Source of the DNA: Gammaproteobacteria bacterium
GTDB lineage: Bacteria; Pseudomonadota; Gammaproteobacteria; Ga0077536
Assembly (NCBI GenBank): GCA_021773835.1
Contig: JAJFJQ010000051.1
Span: forward strand, 124,001-188,000
Direction: 5' to 3'
Length of the DNA: 64,000 bases
Part shown: piece after piece, positions 2,627 through 9,003 of the stretch
Numbering within the stretch: the first letter of the stretch is position 1
Layout of the letters: every line of letters begins with the position of its first letter
Made by a program: the position numbers and the translations under genes
Notes under the pieces: generated by a model
Seen by the model: only the letters and a program-made list of their open reading frames with translations
The model's database searches: none
Told to the model about the DNA's origin: nothing

Positions 2627-3478
2627 ATGAAAGCCATCGACATCGTTTGCAACTTATTCACCCCACGCGAAGTTCGCGAAGGTCGCACTGGTATCGACGA
2701 TGCGTTTTTGGATCAAGTACGTTTCCCGGATGAGCTACGCCCTGGCGTTGAATTAGACGACTACATCGCGCGCATGGACGCGGCAGGTATTGAACGGTCG
2801 TTATTGATTGCGGTACGGGCTGGTGATCTGCGCATCCGTGGTTCGTTCGAAGTACCGTACGACTACGTCGATGCGGCCTGTCGCCAATTCCCCGATCGAT
2901 TTTCGGGCCTCGCCGGGATCGATCCGAGCCGGGGCATGCAGGGTCTACGTGATTTGGAATACGCGGTAAAAGAGCTCGGTTTTGTCGGCGCACATTTGTA
3001 TCCGCATTGGTTCGAACTTGCACCCGATCATGCGCGTTATTATCCGTACTACGCAAAATGTTGCGAACTCGATATCCCGATCATGATGCAAGTCGGGCAG
3101 AACCTGATCTATCAGCGCGATCGACGACTGCCCTCGGTAGCAAAACCGATAACGCTCGATCCCGTGGCGATCGATTTTCCCGAGCTAAAATTGCTCGGTA
3201 TCCACATTGGTATTCCATGGGCGGACGAAATGATTGCGATGGCATGGAAGCACGAGAATGTATTTATTGGCGTCGACGCCTATGCACCGCGCTACTGGCC
3301 GGCGTCTGTCGTGCATTACATGAATTCCTACGGTCGGGAGAAAGTCCTATTCGGTACAGATTGGCCGGTTATCGATCCCGTACGTGCGATACGTGAGATC
3401 GACGCGATCGACATTCGCCCCGAAACACGCGAATGCCTACTACGTAATAATGCCTTGCGTGTGTTTAAGCTACCGTGA
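2627..3478 (+). CDS. Amidohydrolase family 2 protein (ACMSD-like TIM barrel)
   Basis: A 283-residue member of the amidohydrolase_2 group, which contains decarboxylases and hydrolases acting on aromatic-pathway intermediates. The C-terminal signature LFGTDWPV with the metal-site aspartate is present, as are barrel histidines in GAHLYPHWF and LLGIHIGIPW. Odd feature: the N-terminal HxH metal motif expected right after strand 1 is absent; the protein begins MKAIDIVCNLFTP. It may therefore bind metal differently or bind none. It is transcribed toward the GrdB-like gene, 115 nt downstream, in a catabolic neighbourhood. Family call is firm; reaction unknown. Confidence 0.85.
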   Translation: MKAIDIVCNLFTPREVREGRTGIDDAFLDQVRFPDELRPGVELDDYIARMDAAGIERSLLIAVRAGDLRIRGSFEVPYDYVDAACRQFPDRFSGLAGIDPSRGMQGLRDLEYAVKELGFVGAHLYPHWFELAPDHARYYPYYAKCCELDIPIMMQVGQNLIYQRDRRLPSVAKPITLDPVAIDFPELKLLGIHIGIPWADEMIAMAWKHENVFIGVDAYAPRYWPASVVHYMNSYGREKVLFGTDWPVIDPVRAIREIDAIDIRPETRECLLRNNALRVFKLP

Positions 3479-3593
3479 GCTGAAGACGTGATTATGTTTT
3501 TGAGCTGGCCTTTTCTATGCCTTCGGAATCGAACTTTGCTAAAGTAGGCATTGGCGGACACGGTACAACGGTGCCGCACCCAAAGGAGTCACA

Positions 3594-4427
3594 ATGGAAC
3601 CGATCGATTACGTCACCGCGATAGACGACTATTATCAAAATCTTGGTTACCCGGCGTATGACTGGACGATCAACGACACTACACCATTTACCCCGCTAAA
3701 AAAGCCACTCGCCAAATGCCGAGTATCCATGCTCACGTCCGGCGGGATATCGCACCGCACTAGAGCACCGTTCAATCCGACGGCCAAGAACGATCTGCGT
3801 GTTGACGATGTGGACTATCAGTCGGATGACAAAGATTTTGAGATCAACGACGCATACTATGACACGCGAGATGCGATTGAAGATCTCAATGTCGTGTTTC
3901 CAATAGCACGTTTAAGGGAGCTTGCCGAACGTGGTGTGATTGGATCCGTGGCAGAACGCCTGTGGAGTGGTTTCATGGGTCGTACCTACAATCGCAGCGC
4001 CGTCATTGAAGAGGCTGCGCCCGCGTTGGTCGAGGAACTGAACAACGACGAAGTTGATTTACTGATCCTGGTACCCGCCTGACCCCTCGACCACCAGACC
4101 GTGGGTCTGGTATCGCGCGTTGTCGAAGAGGCCGGGATCCCGACTGTTTATGTCAGCACCGGCCGTGATTTAACCCTTCAAGTCTTGCCACCCCGATCGA
4201 TATTCCTGAACTTCCCGATGGGGAATCCATTTGGTCGTCCGCATGATACTGACATGCAGCGTGAGATACTCGTGCATGCATTGAATCATGCGGTTGCGGC
4301 GAAGGAGCCTGGCGAGTTAGTCGATTTGCCGTATGAGTGGGGCGAGCGGATCTTGACGATTATGGAACTGCAGTCGGGCTGGTCCGCAAGCCGGCCCGAT
4401 CCCGTCACTGGAAAACAACCGACCTGA
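3594..4427 (+). CDS. GrdB/PrdB-like reductase family selenoprotein (in-frame TGA read as Sec163)
   Basis: Similar to the selenoprotein B family of glycine/betaine/sarcosine/D-proline reductases, in the short form seen in proteobacteria. The frame starts at ATG 3594 behind AAAGGAG, runs 162 codons to a TGA at 4080-4082, and continues in the same frame to 4427, giving 277 residues. The TGA sits in LILVPA-U-PLDHQTVGLV, where relatives have CPxCHQTV; the residue three positions on, usually Cys, is Asp here. Family features continue past the TGA, for example GNPFGRPHD. A hairpin directly follows (separate entry). A plain nonsense mutation is the alternative, but it would not explain the hairpin or the second such gene at 62760. 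The reductant and substrate are unknown. Confidence 0.8.
4083..4115 (+). promoter_or_regulatory. Predicted bacterial SECIS element
   Basis: ACCAGACC (4093-4100) pairs perfectly with GGTCTGGT (4104-4111) around a GTG apical loop (4101-4103). CGA (4088-4090) can pair with TCG (4113-4115) to extend the foot of the stem. The loop starts 19 nt after the TGA at 4080-4082 and offers G and U at its first two positions, the nucleotides SelB is known to read in bacterial SECIS loops. The hairpin lies inside the coding frame. Confidence 0.75.
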
Positions 4428-4467: not shown

Positions 4468-5181
4468 TTAAGCCGTGGCGGCGCTTTCGCGGAGCATTTG
4501 CACGAGTGTGTCCGTGTCGTGCACGTCGCCCATACCCATCAGAAAAGCAGACAAGGTCGCGTCGTGCTCCGCTTGAGTACGGCCGGCATTACCATCCGCG
4601 ACCATGACTGTTTTAAAGGAAAGCATCGCCGCTTCGCGGGCCGTTGTCTCGCAACACATATTGGTTACGGTACCGGTTACCAGCAAGGTGTCGACGCCTC
4701 GTTCACGCAACAGTGATTCAAGACCTCCGTTACTACCGATAAACGCGCCGAAGCGATTCTTGCTGATCACTGGATCGGTTGCGCGCACGTCGAGCGGGTC
4801 ATAGATTTCGTGGCTGTCGCAGCCATCGATGAGCGCGCCGCGAAAGCGCGCCGCGGCTTCCTCGCTCATGACGTGGTCGAAAAACGTCGGCCAGTAGTCC
4901 TCGGGTCGTGGCCCATAAGTTGAAATGATCCAGACCACCGTGCCGCCAACATCGCGCAGCGTCTTAGCGAGACGGTTGATATTCGGCACGATGCCGCGCG
5001 CTGCGGCGGTCTCGATCGCGGCGCCTTCAGCAACGAAGGCGCGCTGCATGTCAACGACGATCAGGGCTGTTTTCGCCGGTTCCAGCGATTCGTAGATGTG
5101 TAAGCGGCCGCGTCGGCGCATGATGAAATCGACGGTCTGTTGTGCATATACAGTCGGCTTCATCATCACGTCAATCTCCAC
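4468..5181 (-). CDS. Isochorismatase-family cysteine hydrolase
   Basis: A 237-residue hydrolase of the isochorismatase/nicotinamidase fold, most members of which cleave C-N bonds through a cysteine nucleophile. The Asp-Lys-Cys triad can be placed at D44 (IVVDMQ), K141 (ISKNRFGAF) and C176 (TNMCCETTARE). It starts at ATG 5181, 29 nt after the molybdenum hydroxylase large subunit, so it is the last gene of that leftward operon. An amidase or carbamoylase step after ring hydroxylation is a reasonable inference, since such enzymes work in N-heterocycle pathways. The substrate is not shown. Confidence 0.88.
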   Translation of the reverse strand: MEIDVMMKPTVYAQQTVDFIMRRRGRLHIYESLEPAKTALIVVDMQRAFVAEGAAIETAAARGIVPNINRLAKTLRDVGGTVVWIISTYGPRPEDYWPTFFDHVMSEEAAARFRGALIDGCDSHEIYDPLDVRATDPVISKNRFGAFIGSNGGLESLLRERGVDTLLVTGTVTNMCCETTAREAAMLSFKTVMVADGNAGRTQAEHDATLSAFLMGMGDVHDTDTLVQMLRESAATA

Positions 5182-5210: not shown

Positions 5211-7613
5211 TTAGGATTTACTCTCCTGGATCTTTCGCCAGACTGTGTTCGGACGTAGCGGTAATTCGGTAATTTCAATGCCGAATGGTGTCAGTGCATC
5301 GCAAACGGCATTCGTCAGCGCACCCGGCACCGAACTCGGCCGGCCTTCGCCGATACCGCGGGTACCGAGCGGCGTGTGCGGACATGGGGTCGATGAATAG
5401 GTGATTTCGAAATCCGGCACATCGGCCGCCGTCGCAAGCTTGTAATGCTCGAAATCCGCGCTCATCTGCTGTCCTAGCTCATCGTAGACGAATTCCTCGA
5501 ACATGGTGTTGGACAATCCCTGGACTAGTGCGCCGTGCATTTGTCCCTCGACAATCGTCGGATTTATCACGTTGCCGACGTCTTCCGATGTGACCCAGCG
5601 CGTGATGTTGAATGCCCCTGATTCCTCATTCACTTCAACCATGCAGCAATCTGCGTTGAAACAAATCATCGGTTTGTCAGCTTCAAAAAATGCGGTGGTC
5701 TCAAGACCGCCAACTTCGCCTTCGGGTAAGTTGATCGGCCACATGATGATACGCTCGACCATATCCTTGAACGCCTTGCGTTTTGTCGGATCGCCGAGGT
5801 AGACGATATCGCCGTTCTTGAATTCGAAGTGTTGTTTGTGCGCCTCGATTTGGAGATCGTGCGCCAGAATGCGCGTGATCTTGTCCTTAATTTCTTCGCA
5901 CGCTTTTGCTACCGCACTGACGTAATAGGAACCGAAACGCGCGCCGATTGAGCCGGACCCGAACGGTGTCGTGGTGGTATCGCCAGTCGTGACGACGATA
6001 TCGTCTGGATCGATGCCAAAGATGGCCGCGACGGCTTGTGCGGTTGCCGTCTCATGACCTTGGCCGCTCGGTGCGTCACCGCCGAAGACGTAGACCTTAC
6101 CCCGGGGTTCTAAACGTACCGATGCCGCACCATAACCCGGTTGATTTTCCATCGGCACCATCAAGTCCGAAGCGACACCGGAAAGCTCGACGCCGCAGCT
6201 AAAACCAATGCCTATGTAACGTCCTTCTTTGCGCGCCTCAGCTTGCTCCTTACGAAATGCTTCGAGGTCGATCTGTGCCATGAGATTGTCCCACACCCCA
6301 AGAAAATCACCGCTGTCATAGTACTCGCCGGTGATACTGGTGTAGGGCAGTTGCGGGATGATGTTCTTGCGTCGCAATTCGGCGGGCTCCATGCCGATTT
6401 TATGCGCGACGATGTCGATCGACCGTTCAATGGCGAAACGTGTGGGAAAATTGCCGAATGCTCGCGAAGGGGTTAGCGATGTCTTGTTCGTCGAAGCCAC
6501 ACGCAGTTTCACGTCACCCTTGGGCCAGGTGTAAGCATTGGGCATCTCGACAGCGCCGAGAAATGGCATGACAAAACCCCAGTACACACCGATGCAGCCA
6601 GCACCGTTGTTGCCAATGCCACGGTTGCGTAAGGCGAGCAATTCGCCATCTTTCGTCGCGGCGATTTCCATGTAGTTGATCTGGTCGCGTTCCTGACCAA
6701 TGTTCATTAGCGATTCGTAACGCGATTCAACCCAGCAGACCGGGCGGCCAAGTTCCATTGCGGCATGCGCAATGATGATATTCTCGCGATAAAATGGCGC
6801 TTTGATGCCGAAACCGCCACCCATGTCCCGCGGTGCTATCACGCGGACCTTTTCCGCGGGCAGTTCGAGTACGTCGACGAGTGCAAGTCGGTCGATGTGC
6901 GGGCGTTGGGTCGTGATGTAGGCGGTGAGGCCGTCGGATTCGTTCCACTCGCACAGCACACCGCGTGGTTCGAGCGGGGTGACCCCGGTGCGATGGACTT
7001 TGAACCGCTCGCTGACGACGACATCCGCTTCGGCGAAGATTTTTTCCACCTCGACGTCATTCGCCGCTTGTTCCTCCGGCGTTTCACCACCAGTGAAGGT
7101 CATTGCGAATATCTCATTGTCCTTCGAGTCATCGTGCACCCGCGGTGCCCCGTCTTCGAGTGCTGCCTCGGCGTCGATAACGACTGGCAGCTCATCGTAA
7201 TCAACGATCACGAGTTCGGATGCATCCTCGGCGACATACTTATCGCGCGCGATGACCAGCGCCACGGGTTCGCCGTGATAGCGTACTTTATCGACCGCTA
7301 GTGCATGATATTTTGGAAACTGTGCGGGGAGATTTGGGATCAACACGGGTATGTCGAGCGCTTTGAAGGCGTGCTCGATGTCAGCCCCGGTGTAGACGGC
7401 GACGACACCGGGCATCGCCACCGCTTCGCTTTTGTCGATGCCTTTGATCCGCGCGTGGGCATATTCGCTGCGTACGAATACAGCGTGCAACATTCCAGGC
7501 AGCACCATGTCTGACAGGAACTTCCCGCCTCCCGTCATAAGACGTAGATCTTCTTTACGTGGAAGCCGTGTGCCGACCCAGTCGGCGGTATCTTCGATCG
7601 GTTTGCTTGCCAT
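5211..7613 (-). CDS. Molybdenum hydroxylase large subunit (xanthine dehydrogenase/CoxL family)
   Basis: The 800-residue molybdopterin-binding subunit of a three-part hydroxylase that would insert water-derived oxygen into a substrate C-H bond. It shows the fused N-terminal hammerhead domain, the cofactor loop MGGGFGIKAPF, and the C-terminal active-site glutamate in GTRGIGEGRPSSVPGA. The segment matching the CO dehydrogenase active-site loop reads SRAFGNF, neither the AYxCSFR of form I CODH nor the AYRGAGR of form II, so CO oxidation is unlikely. It is the third gene of the leftward order FAD subunit, Fe-S subunit, Mo subunit, hydrolase. An N-heterocycle or aldehyde is a plausible substrate; this is not determined. 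Confidence 0.9.
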   Translation of the reverse strand: MASKPIEDTADWVGTRLPRKEDLRLMTGGGKFLSDMVLPGMLHAVFVRSEYAHARIKGIDKSEAVAMPGVVAVYTGADIEHAFKALDIPVLIPNLPAQFPKYHALAVDKVRYHGEPVALVIARDKYVAEDASELVIVDYDELPVVIDAEAALEDGAPRVHDDSKDNEIFAMTFTGGETPEEQAANDVEVEKIFAEADVVVSERFKVHRTGVTPLEPRGVLCEWNESDGLTAYITTQRPHIDRLALVDVLELPAEKVRVIAPRDMGGGFGIKAPFYRENIIIAHAAMELGRPVCWVESRYESLMNIGQERDQINYMEIAATKDGELLALRNRGIGNNGAGCIGVYWGFVMPFLGAVEMPNAYTWPKGDVKLRVASTNKTSLTPSRAFGNFPTRFAIERSIDIVAHKIGMEPAELRRKNIIPQLPYTSITGEYYDSGDFLGVWDNLMAQIDLEAFRKEQAEARKEGRYIGIGFSCGVELSGVASDLMVPMENQPGYGAASVRLEPRGKVYVFGGDAPSGQGHETATAQAVAAIFGIDPDDIVVTTGDTTTTPFGSGSIGARFGSYYVSAVAKACEEIKDKITRILAHDLQIEAHKQHFEFKNGDIVYLGDPTKRKAFKDMVERIIMWPINLPEGEVGGLETTAFFEADKPMICFNADCCMVEVNEESGAFNITRWVTSEDVGNVINPTIVEGQMHGALVQGLSNTMFEEFVYDELGQQMSADFEHYKLATAADVPDFEITYSSTPCPHTPLGTRGIGEGRPSSVPGALTNAVCDALTPFGIEITELPLRPNTVWRKIQESKS

Positions 7614-7634
7614 GGTCCTTTGTTCCTTATCGTT

Positions 7635-8102
7635 TTATCGCGTCGTCGACTGAGCCGCTTCGCGCACGGCTTTGACGATGTGGACATAGCCGGTGCAACG
7701 GCAAAGATTACCGACGAGACCGTGGCGGATCTCTTCGTCGGTCGGGTTCGGGTTTTTTTCGAGGAACTCCGTCATGTTCATGAGAATGCCCGGCGTGCAG
7801 AAACCGCATTGCAATGCGTGATTGGCCTTGAAAGCGGCTTGCAAAGGGGTCAGCGAACCGTCACGCAGTCCCTCGATTGTGGTGATGGCATGGCCATCGG
7901 CCTGCACCGCCAGCATCAGGCAGCTTTTTACGGCCTCGCCATCCAAGTGGATCGTGCAGGCGCCGCAGACACCCTCGTAAGTGCAGCCGATATGCGTGCC
8001 GGTTAAAGAGAGTCGTTCGCGCAGAAAATCCGACAGTAGCAAACGTTCCGGAACTGTTTCCTCGTAGCGTTCGCCGTTGACGGTAACGTTAATCGTGGGC
8101 AT
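7635..8102 (-). CDS. Molybdenum hydroxylase [2Fe-2S] subunit (CoxS-like)
   Basis: A 155-residue electron-transfer subunit. The plant-type ferredoxin cluster ligands are C40, C46, C49 and C61 (HIGCTYEGVCGAC and SCLML). The second, helical-domain cluster has C99 and C102 (QCGFCTPG) and C134 and C136 (LCRCTGY). The frame is open upstream to 8399, but ATG 8102 is preceded by AGGAGGAAGACCA and begins exactly where the family does, so the longer N-terminus is rejected. It lies between the FAD and molybdenum subunit genes with short gaps on both sides, as in cox-type operons. Confidence 0.93.
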   Translation of the reverse strand: MPTINVTVNGERYEETVPERLLLSDFLRERLSLTGTHIGCTYEGVCGACTIHLDGEAVKSCLMLAVQADGHAITTIEGLRDGSLTPLQAAFKANHALQCGFCTPGILMNMTEFLEKNPNPTDEEIRHGLVGNLCRCTGYVHIVKAVREAAQSTTR

Positions 8103-8124
8103 TGGTCTTCCTCCTAGAATTCGT

Positions 8125-9003
8125 TTAGGTCCGAGCGCGTGCAAATGCGCTAGCGGCAACTTCGCGGCCGAGGTTACGGATGAGTTGACGGCGGTAGTCT
8201 GCGTCGGCGGACATGTCGGAGTGCGTATCTGCCGCTTCAGCTGCGGCATCCATCGCTTTGGCAATCGCCGCGGTGCTACCGTCGGATCCAAGCAACGCGG
8301 TTTCCGCCGCCGGGGCACGTTCGCCGCCACCGGCGAGGCCCGAGATCGAAACCCGAGCGTCGCTGCACGTGCCATCGCCCCCCACGGAAACGCGTACACA
8401 AACCCCGACGACAGGTAATGCGTCGGTCACGAGGCCCCATTTTTTATATGCGCTGCCGGTCTTTGACACTGGTGCATCCCACGACACCGAGGTTAGAATT
8501 TCAGTGTCTTCGCGTGCGGTTTCGAGCGGACCCAAAAAGAAGTCATCTGCCGCAATACTGCGTTCGCCGCCGTTGGCGGCAGTCAAATTCATCGTCCCGT
8601 TCGTGCCGAGCACCACCGCCGGCATACACGACGCCATATAGTTCCAGCACACGCTACCGCCTATCGTGCCCCGGTTGCGCACTTGGCGGTCGCCAACCCG
8701 TGCTGCGGCATCGGCGAGTGCGGCAAAAGCACCGTTCAAGGCAGCGCTCTGTGCGATTTCGACGTAACGGGTCATGGCGCCAATGCGTAGGCCGCCGGCC
8801 GCCGCGTCGATACCTTTCAATTCGCTGATATTTTGCAGGTCAACGATACATTCCGGCCGCAGCATACGAGATTTGATTGCTTGCATGGCGCTCTGCCCGC
8901 CGGCGAGAAACATGGCGTCGCCTTCTTCGAACTCGCCAAGCGCCGCGAGCGCTTCGGCAATCGACTGCGGGCGAACGTACTTTTCTATTTTTGCTGGAAA
9001 CAT
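8125..9003 (-). CDS. Molybdenum hydroxylase FAD-binding subunit (CoxM-like)
   Basis: A 292-residue flavin subunit passing electrons from the Fe-S clusters to an acceptor. Two FAD-binding segments are visible: FLAGGQSAM near residue 32 (family pattern AGGxSxxPxMK) and RNRGTIGGSVCWN near residue 110 (family pattern TIGG). The C-terminal CO_deh_flav_C-like domain follows. It is the first gene of the leftward operon of FAD subunit, Fe-S subunit, Mo subunit and hydrolase. No cofactor-maturation genes are nearby. Confidence 0.92.
   Translation of the reverse strand: MFPAKIEKYVRPQSIAEALAALGEFEEGDAMFLAGGQSAMQAIKSRMLRPECIVDLQNISELKGIDAAAGGLRIGAMTRYVEIAQSAALNGAFAALADAAARVGDRQVRNRGTIGGSVCWNYMASCMPAVVLGTNGTMNLTAANGGERSIAADDFFLGPLETAREDTEILTSVSWDAPVSKTGSAYKKWGLVTDALPVVGVCVRVSVGGDGTCSDARVSISGLAGGGERAPAAETALLGSDGSTAAIAKAMDAAAEAADTHSDMSADADYRRQLIRNLGREVAASAFARART

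Follow-up and report, generated by a model that had tools for sequence, protein, structure and literature searches.

In the reductases of D-proline and of glycine or sarcosine, a subunit of the PrdA/GrdE type (PF09338) serves as partner. Selenoproteins resembling PrdB have also been collected from sea water: 42 sequences from the Sargasso Sea, with UXXC as the PrdB motif (PMC1088965), and 235 from GOS, where PrdB is again listed as UxxC (PMC2398784). Table 1 of a 2026 review gives UxxC for both PrdB and GrdB (PMC13188914). In the wider GrdB family, farB of fluoroacetate-reducing Synergistota has a GrdE-like partner, and Sec is the proposed nucleophile, which would attack the C-F bond; the roles of GrdE are discussed in the same source (PMC10838667). 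The PrdB-like UxxC family has been known since 2005, while a conserved UxxD branch, to which the gene reported here belongs, is apparently undescribed. UxxD is absent from the available parts of PMC2398784 and PMC13188914, and no description of a UxxD or UPLD branch was found in the open-licence literature, which does not prove its absence from print. What that literature holds under 'GrdB-like' or 'PrdB-like' concerns rumen Synergistota. The available part of the deep-Sep work PMC12013277 mentions neither PrdB nor GrdB, and a paper on a methyltransferase cluster was set aside, the part available having no bearing on the UPLD family (PMC10418091).

The gene lies in a window of 64,000 nucleotides, that is, the whole stretch of DNA analysed (G000:C47:124001-188000), taken from a 6.14 Mb assembly that is 98% complete. 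Its product shares with the marine UxxC proteins the homology to PF07355 and PrdB, a Sec predicted at a UGA codon, and an origin in sea-water bacteria; its own genome even contains two UPVCH members of the marine kind, with hairpins. It differs from them by the motif UPLDH, with Asp at the third position after Sec (Sec+3), and by a tighter hairpin, of 8 bp with a 3-nt loop. PrdB of Peptoclostridium acidaminophilum (TIGR04483) can be aligned with it over residues 32-249, and Sec and the following His then share columns (U-x-x-C-H and U-P-L-D-H), whereas the Cys before that His is Asp here. GrdB (TIGR01918) and farB are related to it distantly, via the C-terminal part of a 431-residue model; in contrast to these, the UPLD protein is a single short domain without UxxC, and no GrdE-type partner was found in the carrier genomes searched. 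Members with CPVCH or CPICH, such as those of Roseomonas called 'glycine/sarcosine/betaine reductase selenoprotein B family protein', have the same domain, at about 34% identity, but carry Cys for Sec and Cys at Sec+3.

The UGA codon, its decoding and its conservation

The features of the gene are as follows.

3594-4427, + strand: UPLD-type PrdB-like selenoprotein gene; 277 aa with Sec as residue 163; matches to PF07355 and TIGR04483
4080-4082, + strand: in-frame UGA, very probably read as selenocysteine (U163 in VPA-U-PLDHQTVGL)
4089-4091, + strand: GAC codon for Asp166, where UxxC has its second Cys
4093-4111, + strand: SECIS-like hairpin; 8-bp stem 4093-4100/4104-4111, GUG loop 4101-4103

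The first-pass annotation of this stretch had proposed a selenoprotein gene with UGA at the catalytic position, followed by a perfect 8-bp stem with a GTG loop; re-reading the sequence bore out the position of every one of these elements, and the spacing between them. The gene is a single open reading frame, in which the only internal TGA is codon 163 and the terminal TGA is at 4425-4427. Readthrough of the internal TGA gives 277 residues, and without readthrough the product has 162. The start codon is ATG, and AAAGGAG stands just 5' of it (3582-3588). No sigma-70-like site was returned by a promoter scan; one terminator-like site was seen at 3725-3706 on the minus strand, which is no more than chance.

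A search for selA, selB, selC and selD found all four in the genome, the first three on the contig of the window and selD on another.

C47:431451-432824: selA; 599 bits (cut-off 268)
C47:432851-434740: selB; 421 bits (cut-off 242)
C47:434844-434935: tRNA-Sec (selC); 63.4 bits (cut-off 47); tRNA-SeC with anticodon TCA by ARAGORN
C55:135839-136750: selD (L040); 294.8 bits (cut-off 125)

A second tRNA-Sec match above the cut-off, on C26, was discarded, being tRNA-Ser according to ARAGORN. The selD match is near the end of a long ORF (about 798 aa), so that SelD of this genome is probably fused to a further domain. Among the other carrier genomes searched (that of L020 lay outside the search), selB was above cut-off in 24 of 25; the exception is the L009 MAG, where selB appears only as pieces under the cut-off.

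Scanning a collection of 84,980 species genomes yielded 22 relatives with 44-77% identity. All 22 have TGA at the same column, within U-P-L-D-H-Q-(T/S)-V-G-L. The taxonomic family of the genome added two more TGA orthologues (G009 and G001), and two with TGC at the Sec column (G010 and G017); 15 weaker paralogue places found at this level were left out of the reading. Both TGC orthologues belong to the sister genus g8, and their hairpin is broken, a stem pair and the GTG loop being lost. At the order level, the branch was present in 5 of 36 genomes, three with TGA and two with Cys. In a phylum sample of 398 genomes, with up to six candidates scored per genome, the genome of the window alone had a member of the UPLD branch, and the remaining matches read C/U-P-V/I-C-H. 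An alignment of the joined 277-residue protein with its homologues thus has Sec (UGA) in the near relatives and Cys in some members. The expectation of the first-pass annotation, that relatives have Cys at this column, is correct for the two TGC orthologues and for distant CPxCH members, but not for the nearest relatives, which carry UGA.

The named carriers are labelled Alphaproteobacteria or plain Proteobacteria, Deltaproteobacteria (Myxococcota in the taxonomy used) and, for L009, Acidobacteria. Since L009 is 77% identical to the window protein, it may represent horizontal transfer or misbinning. Viral contigs gave 52 pattern matches, with no relative among them; 24 plasmid records matched, all below 60% identity, and the motif was read in two.

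Purifying selection extends beyond the TGA. Identity is 80% after the TGA and 76% before it in the comparison with L009, and 76% and 72%, respectively, with the G009 orthologue. The corrected ratio of nonsynonymous to synonymous changes after the TGA is 0.093 for the first pair and 0.123 for the second; these are rough values, because synonymous sites are near saturation.

The hairpin in the family

Bacterial SECIS elements are hairpins located just 3' of the UGA, with a G in the apical loop, within a characteristic geometric range. The hairpin of the window has eight Watson-Crick pairs; its start and its loop G are 11 and 19 nt past the TGA, respectively. Taken alone, it is only moderately unusual: z is -1.0, and when the 43-nt stretch was shuffled 200 times with dinucleotides preserved, 28 of the products folded as well or better. 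Under a null model of synonymous codons, 4.6% of draws had eight pairs at this position and 1.2% had eight Watson-Crick pairs, and the local folding energy was matched in 0.4%. As a single hairpin is not striking against shuffles, proof has to be comparative. An Rfam search of 3900-4400 gave no credible family match; its one match, Alpha_RBS on the minus strand (E 4.2), was put down to chance.

The 25 Sec members with UPLD, without exception, have all eight stem pairs and a loop that begins with G. For the UPVC Sec members, the loop G was present in all 42 and the complete stem of eight pairs in none. The UPVC(H) hairpins lack the loop-closing eighth pair and therefore have a loop of five bases, compared to three in UPLD; SECIS geometry goes with the subfamily, as can be seen for instance in the UPVCH members L052-L075. 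Two other Sec forms were encountered, UPDCC (L045), with eight of eight pairs, and UPFCTR (L101), with five of eight in the usual register.

Covariation was analysed on 24 of the 25 UPLD Sec members (L051 was left out), which correspond to 18 distinct rows. Every cell of the alignment pairs (100%), and three of the eight pairs have two-sided changes, a level reached by 1 of 500 shuffles. These two-sided changes come from two sequences only: L023, with one pair (G-C to A-U), and L029, with two (A-U to U-A and C-G to U-A).

The Cys forms have lost this pairing. In the two CPLD forms (G010 and G017), seven of eight pairs remain and GCC replaces the GTG loop; these two are sisters, so that one loss event is counted and not two. 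The 17 other Cys members all lack a complete set of the first seven pairs, and three of them have the loop G. Given that Sec and Cys forms code for nearly the same peptide, the loss of pairing points to selection acting on the RNA and not on the protein.

We conclude from this comparative evidence, with a probability of about 0.85, that 3594-4427 is a functional selenoprotein gene, belonging to a conserved PrdB-like subfamily with Asp at Sec+3. The TGA at 4080-4082 very probably encodes selenocysteine: the Sec machinery is present, the codon and the hairpin are conserved, and selection persists downstream. That the TGA would have arisen by nonsense mutation or by an error of sequencing or assembly, or would be a true stop giving a 162-residue protein, is scarcely credible, for although the mechanical ORF listing ends at this codon and one hairpin alone is not improbable, the identical TGA recurs in separate records of all 22 relatives, purifying selection continues past it, Cys occupies the same column in two orthologues, and the genome has the full machinery. 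Genes of this type are cut into two by ORF callers that stop at UGA, as happens here in the mechanical listing.

The UPLD branch and its predicted fold

The window protein matches PF07355 (GRDB) with 33.9 bits, above the gathering cut-off of 22. The equivalog model of D-proline reductase PrdB (TIGR04483) gave 139 bits, under its cut-off of 300, and the model of the glycine/sarcosine/betaine selenoprotein B (TIGR01918) gave 44.5 bits, under 65.45; the NCBIfam PrdB, GrdB and broader selenoprotein-B models were all matched under cut-off. By these profile matches, the product is a distant homologue of PrdB and of the GrdB C-terminal half.

Of 103 profile matches, those identical over 210 nt around the codon were merged and those without the Sec column were discarded, which left a family table of 88 members. 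The tree set has 85 rows, three short ones being omitted. For the 68-row alignment, 18 of the 85 were removed manually, most of them near-copies and one the partial L027, and the window protein took the place of its copy L042. All 68 members match TIGR04483 at E <= 0.001. The residue at Sec+3 divides this alignment without exception: Asp in the 25 PLD rows (23 with Sec and two with Cys), and Cys in the 43 others. The U-P-L-D motif, which the first-pass annotation had called unusual, is therefore present as read; it is not a single odd change, but the invariant signature of a whole clade. Because Asp invariably replaces the resolving Cys of UPxCH, no Se-S bond is possible within the motif.

In the tree, UPLD and CPLD members group together, apart from UPVC and CPVC. 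The support of this grouping is 92/73 when the long-branch L029 is included, which is below the mark of the tree tool for firm support, and 95/99 without L029. The divergent UPDCC paralogue, whose branch is very long, falls on the UPLD side with uncertain placement. With a conserved UxxD branch and a natural Sec-to-Cys swap in one bacterial family, what selenium does can be told apart from what the resolving cysteine does, and either role becomes open to test.

The AlphaFold model is a confident single domain (pLDDT 90.6), in which strand 156-160 is followed by Sec163 and then by helix 164-179; the product is predicted to be a single-domain, Rossmann-like alpha/beta protein. A sequence profile search of the PDB gave no match, and Foldseek none at E <= 0.001. 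The best VIA fold match (Z 8.4, 157 residues, 3.7 A rmsd) corresponds to a common Rossmann-like arrangement.

Surroundings and possible chemistry

The gene had been described as sitting among aerobic-type oxygenases and hydroxylases, and these surroundings are real.

2-922: Rieske oxygenase fragment
2627-3478, + strand (that of the UPLD gene): amidohydrolase gene, upstream flank
4468-5181, convergent to the UPLD gene: isochorismatase-family gene, downstream flank
5211-9003: three genes of a molybdenum hydroxylase (large, 2Fe-2S and FAD subunits)

An AMP-dependent ligase gene is also near. The molybdenum hydroxylase cluster, the isochorismatase-family gene and a nearby FAA hydrolase gene likely form an oxidative catabolic island.

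Neighbours vary by lineage and point to no particular substrate. A luciferase-like flavin monooxygenase (LLM) gene lies within 3 kb in at least 8 of 27 loci, and a TauD-type dioxygenase gene next door in at least 7 of 27, both being raw counts without a genome-wide baseline; one or the other is found in at least 15 of the 27, while the window locus has neither adjacent to the UPLD gene. The loci have unequal spans, so that these counts are lower bounds. Each of the two search profiles derives from six proteins encoded in these same loci; Pfam confirms the assignment for four LLM and two TauD genes. Close similarity unites six of the eight LLM genes, which lie upstream on the same strand and probably represent one inherited arrangement, so that the counts are not independent. 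In four loci (L010, L014, L015 and L030), a UPVCH selenoprotein gene is found some 4-6 kb from the UPLD gene. Pfam also identifies acyl-CoA dehydrogenase, AAA/VWA and DUF2817 genes in the L014 stretch, and clusters of similar ORFs occur in L010 and L030, which suggests a selenoprotein neighbourhood in common.

SelB, carrying Sec-tRNA(UCA), would bind the hairpin 4093-4111 and have the UGA decoded as Sec, as the conserved machinery and the comparative evidence indicate. For the enzyme itself, the following mechanism is proposed tentatively, at somewhat less than even odds. The selenolate, placed at the N-terminus of the helix that starts at residue 164, would act alone as nucleophile and attack a small polar catabolic intermediate, with Asp166 and His167 serving as acid-base or binding groups. 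An external thiol, for example glutathione, would then reset the enzyme, and the pyruvoyl partner of the proline and glycine reductases would not be used. Asp166 and His167, beside Sec, are invariant in the branch, and the motif is without Cys. That one genus has Cys for Sec is consistent with a role as nucleophile. A more specific version is speculative and rather doubtful: the UPLDH branch would be a stand-alone selenoenzyme of oxygen-using bacteria, in which the lone selenolate and the Asp-His pair cleave a C-N, C-S or C-halogen bond of a metabolite derived from flavin or Fe(II) oxygenases. If true, this would be an amino-acid-reductase fold stripped of both the resolving cysteine and the pyruvoyl partner.

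Three other chemistries were weighed. The motif without a partner Cys, together with the flavin monooxygenase or TauD neighbours, would also suit a 1-Sec reductase of peroxide or selenenic-acid type, similar to 1-Cys peroxidases, which glutathione would reset and which would guard oxygenase pathways. This is possible but not favoured, as family and fold searches gave no peroxiredoxin or glutathione peroxidase match and the family is that of the amino-acid reductases. Alternatively, Cys42 could resolve the oxidised Sec, in which case the protein would be an ordinary two-residue selenol/thiol enzyme carrying out a dithiol-type reduction. Cys42 is present in 24 of the 25 PLD rows (the exception, L029, has Cys43) compared to 7 of the 43 others, and the window protein contains exactly one Cys, this one, and one Sec. 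The predicted model, however, puts Cys42 before strand 43-48 and Sec at the start of helix 164-179, positions that would usually be at opposite ends of a parallel alpha/beta sheet; we consider this explanation unlikely.

Least probable of the three, and very improbable in itself, is that the protein acts together with a PrdA/GrdE-type partner as part of a reductase for D-proline, glycine, sarcosine or betaine. It does have homology to PrdB and GrdB, with about 32-34% identity to the Peptoclostridium PrdB and U-G-T-C-H at the same place in the latter. But the PrdB score is less than half the equivalog cut-off, the Cys at Sec+3 is lost, and the pyruvoyl partner (PF09338) was found in none of the 16 carrier genomes searched (of 26), including that of the window. 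In the control, the Peptoclostridium acidaminophilum plasmid, the same profile gave three matches, one of them directly upstream of prdB. Several to many of the carriers searched are incomplete MAGs, so that single absences are weak. For GrdA (PF04723), there was no match in the genome of the window, and the control genomes had none either. The name 'GrdB/PrdB-like' given by the first-pass annotation thus stands as a statement of distant homology, and an actual GrdB or PrdB enzyme is unlikely. The absence of PF09338 from the 16 carriers suggests that amino-acid reduction is not the task of every PrdB-like selenoprotein in Alphaproteobacteria and Myxococcota.

The genome of the window has five members of the family in all: besides the UPLD gene, these are a UPDCC form, two UPVCH Sec forms and a CPVCH Cys form.

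C47:287745-288458: UPDCC paralogue (L045, L096, L105), with Sec in U-P-D-C-C-R and its own 8-bp hairpin
C7:51858, C25:24821 and C25:49487: further members, two UPVCH (with hairpins) and one CPVCH

The UPDCC paralogue follows a gene for a luciferase-like flavin monooxygenase and begins 12 nt past it, a spacing at which the two are probably in one operon. A divergent fragment of the family with U-P-F-C-T-R (L101, G001:C299:11149-11541) is located about 10 kb from the UPLD orthologue of that genome, on the same contig.
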